A DNA stretch of 30,788 nt from positions 1 to 30,788 of the IMG/VR virus record IMGVR_UViG_3300025853_000412; one strand, 5' to 3'. This stretch comes from a virus. Positions 6,585 to 12,496 of this stretch are shown here, piece by piece. The notes below the pieces were generated by a model that was not told where the DNA came from, made no database searches, and was given only the letters and a program-made list of their open reading frames with translations. Position numbers and translations under genes: made by a program. Position 1 is the first letter of the stretch, and every line of letters starts with the position of its first letter.

Positions 6585-7008
6585 CGACGACCTCCGCTTC
6601 TTGCTCGATCTCGACAGGTGCTTTGACGTTAAAGCCGATAACAGACGGCTTATCCATGTTCTGCTCGACCTCTAACAAGCCCGCAGCCTTCGCTAAGGTA
6701 CGCAATGTCTGAACTTTATCGTGTAATTCAACCGTTACGGTGGATGCACCATCTTTGCTAATAGTAGAAGTCACCTTCTTAATGGCTCTATGGGCATATT
6801 CTGGAATATCTTTGGCCGCCTTCAGGCGAACATTGCCATACTCATCCCAATCCATGATGTCACGCACAGAGGTCGTGGCCATACACAACATTTCTGTTGC
6901 TATCGCCTCTTTATTCTGCTTAATGGTATTGCTCTTTTTTAGCTCAGTGACACGGGGCTTACTACCACCATATCCTTTAAGGCTAGGTATTACGTTCTTT
7001 TTTGTCAT
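6577..7008 (-). CDS. terS: Terminase small subunit
   Basis: A 143-residue protein placed directly before the large terminase and overlapping it. It is basic and helical at the N-terminus, then predicted helices around AIKKVTSTISKDG, with an acidic C-terminus (EIEQEAEVVDE), a plausible layout for the subunit that recognises phage DNA. The family is weakly conserved, so position carries most of the weight. The ATG at 7008 has an AAGGTG ribosome site and a promoter 25-50 bases upstream. Confidence 0.75.
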   Translation of the reverse strand: MTKKNVIPSLKGYGGSKPRVTELKKSNTIKQNKEAIATEMLCMATTSVRDIMDWDEYGNVRLKAAKDIPEYAHRAIKKVTSTISKDGASTVTVELHDKVQTLRTLAKAAGLLEVEQNMDKPSVIGFNVKAPVEIEQEAEVVDE

Positions 7009-7024
7009 ATAGCACCTTTAGTCA

Positions 7025-7052
7025 TTGACAGGGAATATAGCAGTAGTACAAT
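7025..7052 (+). promoter_or_regulatory. Rightward near-consensus promoter before the structured RNA
   Basis: TTGACA (7025-7030, a perfect -35) and TACAAT (7047-7052, five of six) are separated by 16 bases. Transcription would start near 7059-7061, exactly where the first arm of the long closing stem of the candidate RNA begins. No protein gene lies downstream on this strand in 7061-7500. Confidence 0.6.
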
Positions 7053-7061
7053 TATTTTAAA
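7034..7061 (-). promoter_or_regulatory. Leftward promoter of the terminase operon
   Basis: On the minus strand TATATT (7034-7039) carries an extended -10 TGC just upstream and a weaker TTTAAA (7056-7061) 16 bases away. The start point would be near 7027, leaving a short leader with an AAGGTG site before terS. Its -10 lies inside the spacer of the rightward promoter at 7025-7052, so the two probably cannot be occupied together. Confidence 0.5.
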
Positions 7062-7313
7062 AGGCAATTCCTGTAAGGCCACCTAAGGTATGAAAAACTA
7101 CCAAGATACTCCAGTGGCCCTATCAGTCTGGGATAAACGTTATACGACGATAATTCTTACAGGAAACCCTTAATGGGATGCCAAGCCGAACAGAGTCCGC
7201 TCCTGACGTAGGCTGAAGCATTAGTCGAGCATCCGCTCCCTAACCATTAATCGGTCAGACCAACCAATAATCATTGGCTAATCCTGAATAGACGGGAGTT
7301 AGCCTATTGCCTT
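7060..7313 (+). ncRNA. Candidate structured non-coding RNA, about 250 nt
   Basis: This stretch has no convincing gene but holds nested complementary segments that form a multi-branched fold. P1 (7061-7068 with 7306-7313, 8 bp) closes the whole element. P2 (7068-7077 with 7156-7165, 10 bp perfect) encloses 7077-7082 with 7114-7119. P3 pairs 7170-7181 with 7229-7233 plus 7244-7250 (12 bp with one bulge) and holds an inner stem 7184-7187/7211-7214 and a small hairpin with a TCCG loop, a UNCG-type tetraloop on this strand. P4 (7276-7285 with 7294-7304) has ten pairs, one a G-U pair only on the plus strand. A promoter starts at its 5' end. The fold matches no RNA class known to me. P1 and P2 share base 7068 and P2 and its inner stem share 7077. 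Confidence 0.5.
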
Positions 7314-7396
7314 CCACTACAGCACAAACGATATATCCCTCTCCTCTCTCGTATACATTGCTCTGCACGATCTAAAAAGCCCGATCAAGGATTTTC

Positions 7397-7452
7397 CAGA
7401 AAATTTTGCGTGAATTTACTCAATCCCAAAAAACTCAGAAAATTTTGCGTGA
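7397..7452. repeat. Pair of 17-bp direct repeats, possible packaging site
   Basis: CAGAAAATTTTGCGTGA occurs identically at 7397-7413 and 7436-7452, 39 bases apart. The second copy runs straight into a G-run and then a C-rich tract (7453-7490). Each copy contains the palindrome AAAATTTT. Position between replication and terminase genes fits a cos or pac recognition region, but the sequence alone does not show a cleavage site. Confidence 0.5.
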
Positions 7453-7464
7453 GGGGGATACGAC

Positions 7465-7500
7465 GCACCCACCACCCCATCCCCCCCAAAGGGTGCTTTT
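7465..7500 (+). terminator. Weak rightward terminator-like hairpin
   Basis: GCACCC (7465-7470) and GGGTGC (7491-7496) can pair around a 20-base loop and are followed by TTTT on the plus strand. It could end the transcript that begins near 7060. The long loop and short T-run make it weak, and the inverted repeat might instead belong to a packaging site. Confidence 0.3.
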
Positions 7501-8151
7501 CTACGAGCGCAACATGATCGATACGCTAGCGGGTGGCCTACCTCGGGATTTAAATAAGACCTGGGTGGCTTTTTTGAAGTCTTCGAGCGTGTAGCGGGTG
7601 GCTAACTTGGTGTATATATCCTTTTCGTATTGATGAGATATTCCATAGACTGCCAGGGCTTCCTGCCACACACGATACAAACTAGTAGGTTTAGCTAATA
7701 CCTCATCATTTGATTTGTTAGTAAGCACTAACTTATCTTTATGTTCTTTAATGGTTTTATCTTGTCGCTCTTTGTCTTGTTGATCCTGGTTAGCTTGGTG
7801 CCAATCGTCAGGATGTGGTGGGTTATTTGGATCGTAGACTATCGCTCTAGGCTTAGCGTGTTTACCTACTGTATAGCTGTTGTTGATTGTTATTAGATAG
7901 CCACGTTGAGTAAGCCAATCAATATGCGCTTTCATGGTTGGCTTTGATATACCCATGTCGTCCGCCATTCTTTCTATGCTGGGCCAAGCATTCCCTTTGT
8001 GATTAGCGTATGAGCATATTGTTAATAGCGCTCGCATTCTCTGAATAGTAAAGCGCTTATCCTGGGCCGCTCGATAAGGAACAACAATATAGATTCTTTT
8101 GTCTTCGGCTATCTCAGGTTTAAAGTCTTCCGGTTTCTTTGGTTCAAGCAT
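7501..8151 (-). CDS. HTH replication-initiator-like or regulatory protein
   Basis: A 216-residue protein with a winged helix-turn-helix at about residues 38-85 (QRMRALLTICSYANHKGNAWPS, then MADDMGISKPTMKAHIDWLTQRGYL), the pattern of phage HTH_36-type proteins often annotated as replication protein O or a transcription regulator. The middle is basic and charged (DQQDKERQDKTIKEHKDKL), and the C-terminal 50 residues form a second small helical domain. It is the second initiator-like protein in the window, besides the one at 11885-12496. The ATG directly follows the T-run of a terminator, and its only ribosome site (GAGGG) lies inside that hairpin. Confidence 0.6.
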   Translation of the reverse strand: MLEPKKPEDFKPEIAEDKRIYIVVPYRAAQDKRFTIQRMRALLTICSYANHKGNAWPSIERMADDMGISKPTMKAHIDWLTQRGYLITINNSYTVGKHAKPRAIVYDPNNPPHPDDWHQANQDQQDKERQDKTIKEHKDKLVLTNKSNDEVLAKPTSLYRVWQEALAVYGISHQYEKDIYTKLATRYTLEDFKKATQVLFKSRGRPPASVSIMLRS

Positions 8152-9937: not shown

Positions 9938-10100
9938 TCATCTCCTCCAATAGTCTTTCCAGTGCGTCTCTTCCACGCTTCTTTTCAATCGCATCCTTAC
10001 GAGCATTCCACCAGCCACGTCCATTCTTACGGGCTTGTTCCTTCCAATACCTAGCCTCACACTCAAGCATATATTGAGCCAAGTCGGTCTTCTTATACAT
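9924..10100 (-). CDS. Small phage protein, DUF7696-like
   Basis: A 58-residue basic protein starting at ATG 10100, which overlaps the PAPS-reductase-like stop codon by one base. It begins MYKKTDLAQYMLECEARYW and ends KKRGRDALERLLEEMNGNA. The CEARYW and the KRG…A…L..EM tail recall the DUF7696 family of short phage proteins, but I hold that loosely. It fills what would otherwise be a 160-base gap in a tight operon, which supports it. Confidence 0.6.
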   Translation of the reverse strand: MYKKTDLAQYMLECEARYWKEQARKNGRGWWNARKDAIEKKRGRDALERLLEEMNGNA

Positions 10101-10954
10101 CAATCAAACATATCCAATTGACAATTAAATACCTCACAGGATTCTTCACAAGAACCCGAAGCTGATCGCAATGTCCTTAGTAGCTCTTCACGAGTATTGT
10201 CTTCAAATGCCTCTGTAATCCCGTTAAAGGTCTGATAGTTACGATAGCAAGCCTCATTTGGAATACCTGCTTCTTTTCTGCCAGCAGTAACGTGCATTCC
10301 ATCTCGATACACCATGTCACGCCACTGATCAGCAAGATAAGGTTCATCTCTTTGCCCTAATGCAATTCGATTAGCGCCTTTTTTGATACAGAACACGCAA
10401 TTACCGAGGTAATCAGGCAAGCCTAAGTCGAATGGTTGGTCATACCACCAATCATTAATGTCTTGCTTGTCTTTAACGGATAATTCAGCCAAATAGCGCA
10501 TATTAGGCACATCTTTTAATCGTTTAGGCTCATCAATACGAATGCCAAGCCATGTTGTGTAGTTATCTTTGCCAAACTGATCAATACACCACTTCTTAAA
10601 CGGCATAATCTTCATTACATCAGTACATTTCGGCATAGTTACATGAGGCATACCGTATTTCTTGGTGTAGTCATACCAGGGGATCAGATCAGGCTTACAA
10701 TCCTCTAGTGATACCACATGGTAAGTGGCACTTTTACCTTGCTCTTGAATCACATTGGCTCGAAGGCAAACCAAATCTATCCCAAAGTATTTGACAACAT
10801 TACGGATAAATTCATAAGTTTTTGGATGCTCTGCGCCAGTATCCATAAAGACATAATGCACATCATCAATCTTCCCTGCTTTACGTCTTTGCTCAATCTC
10901 CCAAACAAGATAAGCAGACGTTCTGCCACCACTGAAGCTCACTACATTAGGCAT
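10100..10954 (-). CDS. PAPS reductase / adenine nucleotide hydrolase-like protein
   Basis: A 284-residue protein of the N-type ATP pyrophosphatase superfamily that contains PAPS reductase and DndC. The PP-loop SFSGGRTSAY is at residues 6-15, with FMDTGAEHPKTYEF shortly after as a typical second motif. Cys pairs follow (NCVFCIKKG near residue 187, and CEESCEVFNC near the end), which could bind metal or an Fe-S cluster. Such genes are frequent in phages and sit near replication genes. Known members reduce PAPS, make iron-sulfur cofactors or modify nucleic acids. Its role here is open. It overlaps the helicase gene by eight bases. Confidence 0.8.
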   Translation of the reverse strand: MPNVVSFSGGRTSAYLVWEIEQRRKAGKIDDVHYVFMDTGAEHPKTYEFIRNVVKYFGIDLVCLRANVIQEQGKSATYHVVSLEDCKPDLIPWYDYTKKYGMPHVTMPKCTDVMKIMPFKKWCIDQFGKDNYTTWLGIRIDEPKRLKDVPNMRYLAELSVKDKQDINDWWYDQPFDLGLPDYLGNCVFCIKKGANRIALGQRDEPYLADQWRDMVYRDGMHVTAGRKEAGIPNEACYRNYQTFNGITEAFEDNTREELLRTLRSASGSCEESCEVFNCQLDMFD

Positions 10955-11888
10955 AAATACCTCCTAGACGGTCTTCCACTTGATCATTCTTACTCCACTG
11001 CCTGCCTGGTTCTGGCCAGGGCATAGCACCCATCTTAGGACTAGGAACCCATTGCTGTGAATCCTCATGGAACCAGAATCCCCAAGTACCTTCCCACTCG
11101 CCATGACGGTGCTTAGCGACTCGAATAAAGCCAGTAGGATTACCGTCATCAAGATCACCAATGGTTCTGCGGTGAATTACCAAAAGATTATCAGCCAAAT
11201 CTACAATGGCTCCACTACCCTTAACGTCAAATTTTTGGGGCATCTCTGACTCATTCGGCTGCTTTCTCATATGCAAGATCAAGTGAATGTGGACGTGTTC
11301 ATCCTTTGCAATCTGAGTCAACTTGTTCACAAACTCTTGCTGGGCAGTGTAATCATCAGGCCCAACACCTTTAATCTTTACCAATGAGTCGATGAAAAAA
11401 TGCTTGACACCAAGCTCAGCAGCAGCGTAGTGGATCATTCCGAACAAATTACCCTGCTCTGCATCACCTACTTGGTTATAGATATACACTCTGCCATCTA
11501 GCTGTTCCGTTATAGCGGTTGCATACTCCTTGCTCGGATTACTCATACCACCAGCCTGACGAATCATGCGAGCTAAGGTAGCCTCAGGTAGCATTTCCAT
11601 CGAAGCCACGACAACAGGACGCTCTAACCAGATAGAGGTCATACCCGTTACCAATGACTTACCCATACCATTCACACCAGCCCATAACGTCAACTCTCCA
11701 TCCCTAAATCGGAAGTGTTCGTGGGTTTTATGCCAGGGAAGAGTGTCACCATAGGGCTTTAGAGTCCCTGAGAGACGTTCTAAGGCCTTTTCTAGGTGCT
11801 GGGTAGGTCTATCTACCTTCTGTAGGTATAGATCGCTCTCTCGCTGTTTTAAATACTTCTCAAAATCAATGTCGGGTAGTTCTTTCAT
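10947..11888 (-). CDS. DnaB/Twinkle-like replicative helicase
   Basis: A 313-residue RecA-fold ATPase. Walker A AGVNGMGKS is at residues 70-78 and a Walker B-like KHFFIDSLV at 162-170, followed by ILHMRKQP and VKGSGAIVDLADNLLVIHR, the sensor and arginine-finger regions of DnaB-type helicases. It is shorter than DnaB because it lacks the N-terminal domain, as in T7 gp4-like helicase-only phage proteins. It follows the O-like initiator, which probably loads it, and a zinc-primase protein lies one gene further upstream. I chose ATG 11888, overlapping the previous stop in an ATGA. Confidence 0.85.
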   Translation of the reverse strand: MKELPDIDFEKYLKQRESDLYLQKVDRPTQHLEKALERLSGTLKPYGDTLPWHKTHEHFRFRDGELTLWAGVNGMGKSLVTGMTSIWLERPVVVASMEMLPEATLARMIRQAGGMSNPSKEYATAITEQLDGRVYIYNQVGDAEQGNLFGMIHYAAAELGVKHFFIDSLVKIKGVGPDDYTAQQEFVNKLTQIAKDEHVHIHLILHMRKQPNESEMPQKFDVKGSGAIVDLADNLLVIHRRTIGDLDDGNPTGFIRVAKHRHGEWEGTWGFWFHEDSQQWVPSPKMGAMPWPEPGRQWSKNDQVEDRLGGIYA

Positions 11889-12496
11889 ATCCAATCCGTT
11901 ATCTGCTGCTGTTTAGGTTTTGGTGATGGGTCATTCCATCTCTCACCGTTAAGGTAAGTCGGTGCCATTGGTATGAACTGACGTTGCACACCCTCATAAC
12001 GCTCTTTGGCATCTTTAATGGCTTTCTCTTTGCTCGTCTTGCTTAGCTTGTTCCAAGCCTGACGTGCCTTCTTCTTGCTGTCCTTACGGGGATAGTTTTC
12101 CCAGAACTTCTCGAAGAACTCGTCTTCCGCTTTAGCGGCAGACAATAGTTCTCCCTCTCCCTCTCCCTCTCTCTCTGCGCTAGCATCTTGATAGCACTCT
12201 GCTAGCACGTTGCTAGCAACTTTGAAGAAACCCTGTCGTATCAAGGCTTCCAGACCCTCTTTTATTTCTGACTTCTTCATTCGTAGTCGAAACTCAAGAT
12301 CGTCGAGATCGGCATTGATTTCACTTTTTTCGGACTCACTAGCTAACAACCACAATAACGGTGCAAGTGCTTTTGCAGAGGTTGGTAGCAACATAAAGGC
12401 TCGGTCATTCAGGACATCACGATGGAGCTTAATCCAGGGTGGTGTTCTGTTTCGGTAATGCTGGAATTTATCCCAGTTCTTAGGTCTAATTATCAT
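11885..12496 (-). CDS. Replication initiator, lambda O-like
   Basis: A 203-residue protein. Residues 1-110 look like a winged-helix DNA-binding domain (TPPWIKLHRDVLNDRAFMLL, later LEALIRQGFFKVAS). A low-complexity acidic linker (EREGEGEGE) follows, then a C-terminal part with FEKFWENYPRKDSKKKARQAW. That last motif, with the following YLNGERWND, is common in phage O-type and DnaD-like initiators. It should bind the origin and recruit the helicase encoded next. The gene contains a tandem 11-bp iteron array (12179-12222), just as lambda ori lies in O. Confidence 0.75.
   Translation of the reverse strand: MIIRPKNWDKFQHYRNRTPPWIKLHRDVLNDRAFMLLPTSAKALAPLLWLLASESEKSEINADLDDLEFRLRMKKSEIKEGLEALIRQGFFKVASNVLAECYQDASAEREGEGEGELLSAAKAEDEFFEKFWENYPRKDSKKKARQAWNKLSKTSKEKAIKDAKERYEGVQRQFIPMAPTYLNGERWNDPSPKPKQQQITDWI
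12150..12176. repeat. Polypyrimidine simple repeat (TCTCCC)n
   Basis: Three TCTCCC units then TCTCTCTC form a 27-bp strand-asymmetric tract. In the minus-strand gene it encodes the REGEGEGE linker. It lies two bases from the iteron array and may form an easily opened or triplex-prone segment. Confidence 0.7.
12179..12222. repeat. Four tandem 11-bp iterons, candidate replication origin
   Basis: The plus strand reads GCTAGCATCTT, GATAGCACTCT, GCTAGCACGTT and GCTAGCAACTT in direct succession, each exactly 11 bases with G(C/A)TAGCA at its head. A period of 11 is not a multiple of three, so coding constraints cannot explain it. It would place identical sites about one helical turn apart. The array lies in the initiator gene, as lambda ori does. 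Confidence 0.65.

Follow-up and report, generated by a model that had tools for sequence, protein, structure and literature searches.

To our knowledge, extensive conserved structure has been described for few phage RNAs, the majority of which have no assigned function. Phage phi29 has a packaging RNA, a small structured RNA that serves as one point of comparison. GOLLD and ROOL, borne by phages and prophages, are RNAs with elaborate conserved folds of ~650-800 nt or more, located near tRNA genes. No protein partner of ROOL has been identified (PMC12286853). Phage regulatory small RNAs such as 24B_1, the mature form of which is very short, are likewise non-coding transcripts from a phage genome (PMC10732415). 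In addition, candidate RNAs near phage domains have been proposed from metagenome scans and, by their description, rest on evidence like that presented here, namely conserved structure in unannotated gaps (PMC8040213).

The RNA described here lies in a gene-free gap of an uncultured phage genome (IMG/VR IMGVR_UViG_3300025853_000412), of which a stretch of 30,788 nt, referred to as the window, was analysed. The gap is flanked by the TerS gene (start at 7008, minus strand) and a replication-initiator-like gene (7501-8151, minus strand) that matches HTH_36 and replication-initiation PHROGs, and no ORF of at least 40 aa was found between 7013 and 7405, as the original prediction of a gene-free gap had held. 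Like the phi29 RNA, it sits beside packaging genes, but it has no Rfam match, a TerS/TerL pair is present, and a close relative is without the RNA. It also differs from GOLLD and ROOL in that it measures ~250 nt rather than over ~600 nt, matches neither in Rfam and is accompanied by no tRNA in the window, while its highly conserved multi-branched pseudoknotted fold sets it apart from 24B_1. Scanning with the 4227 families of Rfam 15 gave no match at the gathering threshold, a permissive scan of 7000-7500 with E up to 10 also gave none, and no description of the RNA was found in the literature. An acquired non-coding RNA gene of a new family, transcribed on its own, is the best reading. A self-splicing group I intron was considered and rejected, since the RNA matches no such Rfam family and sits between two intact genes, and a group I-like P3/P7 topology needs a CCC/GGG pairing that is unsupported. 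The case shows that RNA genes missing from Rfam can be concealed in the gene-free gaps of packed phage genomes. The features of the locus are as follows.

7025-7052, plus strand: sigma70-type promoter (TTGACA, 16 nt, TACAAT), 11/12 consensus match, kept in homologs
7059-7314, plus strand: predicted structured non-coding RNA gene, from the covariance model, covariation and identity relative to TerS third codon positions
7063-7067, plus strand: P1 5' strand GGCAA, pairing with UUGCC at 7307-7311 (85% of cells paired)
7307-7311, plus strand: P1 3' strand UUGCC, pairing with 7063-7067
7068-7077, plus strand: P2 5' strand UUCCUGUAAG, pairing with 7156-7165 (95% of cells paired)
7156-7165, plus strand: P2 3' strand, pairing with 7068-7077
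7078-7118, plus strand: P2a arm GCCAC/GUGGC (7078-7082/7114-7118) with tip hairpin GGUA/UACC (7087-7090/7099-7102)
7108-7112, plus strand: pseudoknot strand ACUCC, pairing with GGAGU at 7295-7299 (paired in 8/8)
7295-7299, plus strand: pseudoknot 3' strand GGAGU, pairing with 7108-7112
7119-7149, plus strand: P2b CC/GG (7119-7120/7131-7132) and P2c CGUU/GACG (7138-7141/7146-7149), 100% paired
7167-7176, plus strand: 5' strand of the long-range helix P3', CC + UUAAUGG, pairing with 7244-7254 (five pairs with two-sided changes)
7244-7254, plus strand: P3' 3' strand, CCAUUAA + GG, pairing with 7167-7176
7178-7221, plus strand: P4 hairpin within P3' (AUGC/GCAU, AGCC/GGCU, CAG(AG)/(CUC)CUG), with a UCCG loop at 7196-7199
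7227-7238, plus strand: P5 hairpin GAGC/GCUC, from the alignments by eye; the pair count is weak and the region does not align

The near-consensus promoter, which is present as had been proposed, runs opposite to the neighbouring genes and is the best-scoring of 5 sites, with 5.8 expected by chance at the looser 9/12 threshold of the scan. TTGAC is present in all homologs, the best -10 box matches at 4-5 of 6 positions with a spacing of 16-17, and P1 opens with AAAGG/AAACG, which the -10 box precedes by 6-7 nt in 7/7 copies measured. Judged from this promoter, the 5' end of the RNA would lie at ~7059, and the transcript would extend at least as far as the 3' strand of P1, giving ~250 nt; no conserved intrinsic terminator was found after P1 among the homologs.

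Relatives were gathered through TerS and TerL searches of IMG/VR, and their gap aligns with that of the window at 64-86% DNA identity. There are 8 distinct full-length copies (window, L014, L008, L007, L009, L016, L017 and L018), the copies of L010 and L011 being identical to that of L009 and the copy of L015 to that of L016, with each set counted once; 3 further copies, in L006, L012 and L013, are truncated. All copies lie in the same place and orientation, between the replication-initiator gene and TerS. Covariance model R1 scores 258 bits on window 7054-7314 and 214-277 bits on the full-length homologs. The three truncated copies belong to contigs that end within the RNA (model positions 68, 115 and 82, respectively; 3 of ~14 carrier contigs), which could reflect assembly breaks at variable sites or a nearby genome end.

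L019, a close relative, keeps the initiator-TerS-TerL order of the carriers and encodes proteins 82% (TerL), 64% (TerS) and 37% (initiator) identical to those of the window, but its initiator-TerS spacing is only 109 nt and the RNA is absent there. Among 24 records searched whole, the RNA was present in 3, all of the carrier clade, and G014 gave a single weak partial match (E = 0.06); apart from that match, MEP301 (TerL 74% identical) and the other TerL/TerS relatives searched whole were without it, and on the RNA's side of TerS the majority of the other TerS relatives carry a nearby gene. The covariance model detected no additional member among TerL and TerS relatives, and blastn found none in phages, queried with the locus or with the L016 copy, or in plasmids, queried with the RNA. 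In IMG/VR, scanning for conserved motifs recovered the known clade and, besides it, only chance matches, which the covariance model rejected; a pattern scan of GTDB genomes gave ten chance matches and no relative. Further members are probably to be found among metagenome contigs. Gain in one clade would be the simplest account of this sequence distribution, with loss in L019 as a possibility, and the RNA is best read as a cassette added between the replication module and the packaging module in a small clade of phages.

The fold is conserved. On the plus strand, 7059-7320 folds at -75.5 kcal/mol (z = -3.5, with 0/200 shuffles as good), and the homologs give modest z-scores for folding energy (-1.0 to -1.8). 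In the model-fitted alignment, 91.1% of the cells of the 59-pair structure are paired, compared with 27-44% when partners are slid by 1-3 columns. The pairing result is independent of model fitting, because a MAFFT alignment built without any structure also gives 89% paired versus 33-43% slid. Moreover, 14 pairs changed on both sides. They comprise 38 changed cells, where shuffles gave 12.7 +/- 2.4 (0/500 as high), and this count corresponds to roughly a dozen independent compensations by eye, as the sequences fall into about three sub-clades. In a blind scan for all helices of at least 4 bp that pair in every sequence, with 150 column shuffles as the null, the fully paired helices that contained one or more covarying pairs numbered 7, versus 0.85 expected (shuffle maximum 4). 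The RNA gene is almost certainly real and structured, and the prediction of a new structured RNA starting at the promoter is borne out by the conserved fold, the covariation, the constant promoter distance and the empty Rfam scans.

P1, P2, the inner stem and P4 occur where they had been predicted and are kept in homologs. Compensation is seen in P2 (C-G to U-A), in P2a (G-C to C-G), in the tip hairpin, where GC, CG and UA occur at one pair, in P2c (U-A to C-G), and in P4, both in the outer stem and in the tip stem (A-U to U-A); the pairs of P4 shift in the L016 clade. P2b is invariant and hence beyond the reach of covariation. Most of the covariation is carried by the long-range helix P3', which was absent from the original model. 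Its core (7170-7176/7244-7250) ranks first in the blind scan with 4 covarying pairs, a number never reached in one helix over the 150 column shuffles, in which the best was 3, once. The core reads UUAAUGG/CCAUUAA in the window, UAACGG/CCGUUA in L008, where a C opposes an A one pair further out, AGUGUUAG/CUAACACU in L016 and AGUGCUAG/CUAGCACU in L018.

The pseudoknot between 7108-7112 and 7295-7299 crosses P2 and was found by the blind scan, having been missed in the original prediction; in L014 it reads ACCCC/GGGGU, a two-sided change within an otherwise nearly invariant loop. The pseudoknot proposed instead, CTCCC with GGGAG, is not upheld, as 70% of its cells are paired, with no two-sided change and no better than slid controls. 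The hairpin originally named P3 (7276-7286/7293-7304) survives in part: its inner part is present in 5/8 and deleted in 3, while its outer part occurs only in the window and, containing mismatches, in L014. Because 7295-7299 overlaps this inner hairpin, the hairpin and the pseudoknot are alternatives. Likewise, the predicted UNCG-type loop is real in the window as UCCG at 7196-7199, but its closing C is changed to A in L009 and L016-L018. The region 7255-7294 and P5 are variable among homologs; at P5 they carry, by eye, a hairpin differing in sequence and length, and L018 has an insertion of ~30 nt that itself appears hairpin-forming.

Pairwise identity is 65-92% in the RNA versus 38-64% at TerS third codon positions, and this sequence comparison demonstrates purifying selection on the RNA. 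The copy in the window has no open stretch of more than 38 codons in any frame; some homologs have open frames of up to 67 codons, which are unshared, and 1-nt gaps interrupt reading frames. Compensatory changes, a promoter of its own and the lack of coding potential are the general marks of a structured non-coding RNA gene, and all are found here at the level of sequence.

As to function, we lean, if only slightly, towards an RNA gene of its own, non-coding and of a new family, that most likely acts in trans as a folded RNA. The conserved promoter would let host RNA polymerase start a transcript at ~7059 against the direction of the neighbouring genes, and this transcript would form a compact pseudoknotted RNA of ~250 nt with the closing stem P1 and a four-way P2 domain; the P3' long-range helix would hold P4 and P5, and the pseudoknot would tie the P2a loop to the 3' end. 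The folded RNA would work in trans, probably bound to a host protein, and might aid host takeover or counter a host process. We infer that the RNA is made, as we do its ends, its action in trans and any partner. A defence decoy may be one option among such trans-acting roles. More tentatively, it is possible that the RNA represents a new class of compact pseudoknotted RNA, gained as a non-coding cassette, with a role unlike those of known phage RNAs, such as that of a ribozyme, RNA-based inhibition of a host defence or mimicry of a host machine. The small size of the RNA, its clear promoter, its presence in some and absence from other phages that are otherwise similar, and a pseudoknotted model in which the compensatory pairs are named make its role testable.

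Regulation of neighbouring messages was weighed against this trans-acting RNA. A leader of a downstream gene is unlikely, because the sole rightward ORF of at least 60 aa before 9270, a 62-codon TTG-start frame at 7406-7594, overlaps the initiator gene. Antisense action on the terminase, as originally suggested, is also unlikely, and is excluded for the terminase coding sequence, since transcription from the promoter at 7025-7052 runs rightward and leads away from the terminase start at 7008. A leftward read-through message could still offer its leader as an antisense target. No complementarity of at least 11 nt was found between the RNA and the rest of the window. The structure might instead belong to the minus strand and control the leftward terminase message as a leader, by attenuation or in a riboswitch-like manner, given that leftward transcription of the replication genes would pass through it just before TerS and most helices are possible on both strands. 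This appears improbable, as the z-score is lower on the plus than on the minus strand in 7/8 sequences and the plus-strand promoter is conserved at a fixed distance from P1. In addition, G-U pairs kept on the plus strand would be A-C on the minus strand in P1 of L018 (C-G to U-G) and in the tip hairpin of L016-L018; clean cases are few, and a single A-C, located where P3' ends, speaks for the minus strand. A further U-G, at columns 18/112, is an artefact that the change in P2 length introduced into the alignment, and was not used as G-U evidence.

The main rival is a cis-acting replication element, which we consider unlikely overall, in which the RNA would act as a primer or R-loop former and an AT-rich AAAATTTTGYGTGA with a G/C-run element downstream would be the start of synthesis, for which plasmid RNA II and some phage origin transcripts are precedents. 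The RNA adjoins the replication initiator gene, and a AAAATTTTG element lies 48-128 nt downstream of it in every homolog; yet the distance to the nearest copy varies over 48-89 nt, the AAAATTTTGCGTGA element that follows the RNA in all carriers also lies in the 109 nt of L019 without the RNA, and there is no GC-skew turn near 7 kb. A DnaB-like helicase is found in the RNA carriers that reach far enough and in none of the near-complete RNA-free relatives (the L019 contig is too short), but this co-occurrence is confounded by descent and may be simple descent. A packaging RNA working with the terminase, also suggested originally, has the phi29 precedent and the adjoining terminase genes in its favour; it is disfavoured because L019 keeps the gene order, with a TerL 82% identical, but has no RNA at this site, and with the same absence from MEP301 and the other relatives and the empty Rfam search it becomes very improbable. 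Hardly any weight is given to a structure of the DNA itself, for instance a region recognised as a terminase or cos site. In its favour, L015 and L016 split at GTGAGGGGGA, ~150 bp off, which may be a genome end or a point of recombination, and three contigs end within the RNA, but the conserved promoter geometry, the G-U pairs and the long-range pseudoknotted fold are unexpected of a DNA site, and L019 keeps the terminase genes without it.

Several further observations were made around the RNA. Carriers and the RNA-free L019 alike have the AT-rich AAAATTTTGYGTGA, adjoining a G/C run, ahead of TerS, and AGAAAATTTTGCGTGA occurs twice in the window (7396-7459), 39 bp apart, and once in each relative; the AGAAAATTTTGCGTGA/AAAATTTTGYGTGA element is possibly a packaging or origin site. 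At window 7453-7490, the G-run/C-run after GTGA differs in orientation among relatives, with GGGGGAT then ATCCCCC in the window, G-rich runs on both sides in L008 and L014, and CATCCCCC in L019. The sequences of L015 and L016 agree fully as far as GTGAGGGGGA and differ after it, a mosaic breakpoint that is a possible genome end or recombination point. Circular closure of the contig by way of the capsid gene was not supported. The DnaB_C-like helicase of the window is encoded at 10947-11894, and the replication module also contains a PAPS reductase-domain protein at 10100-10954 (Pfam E 1.8e-7).
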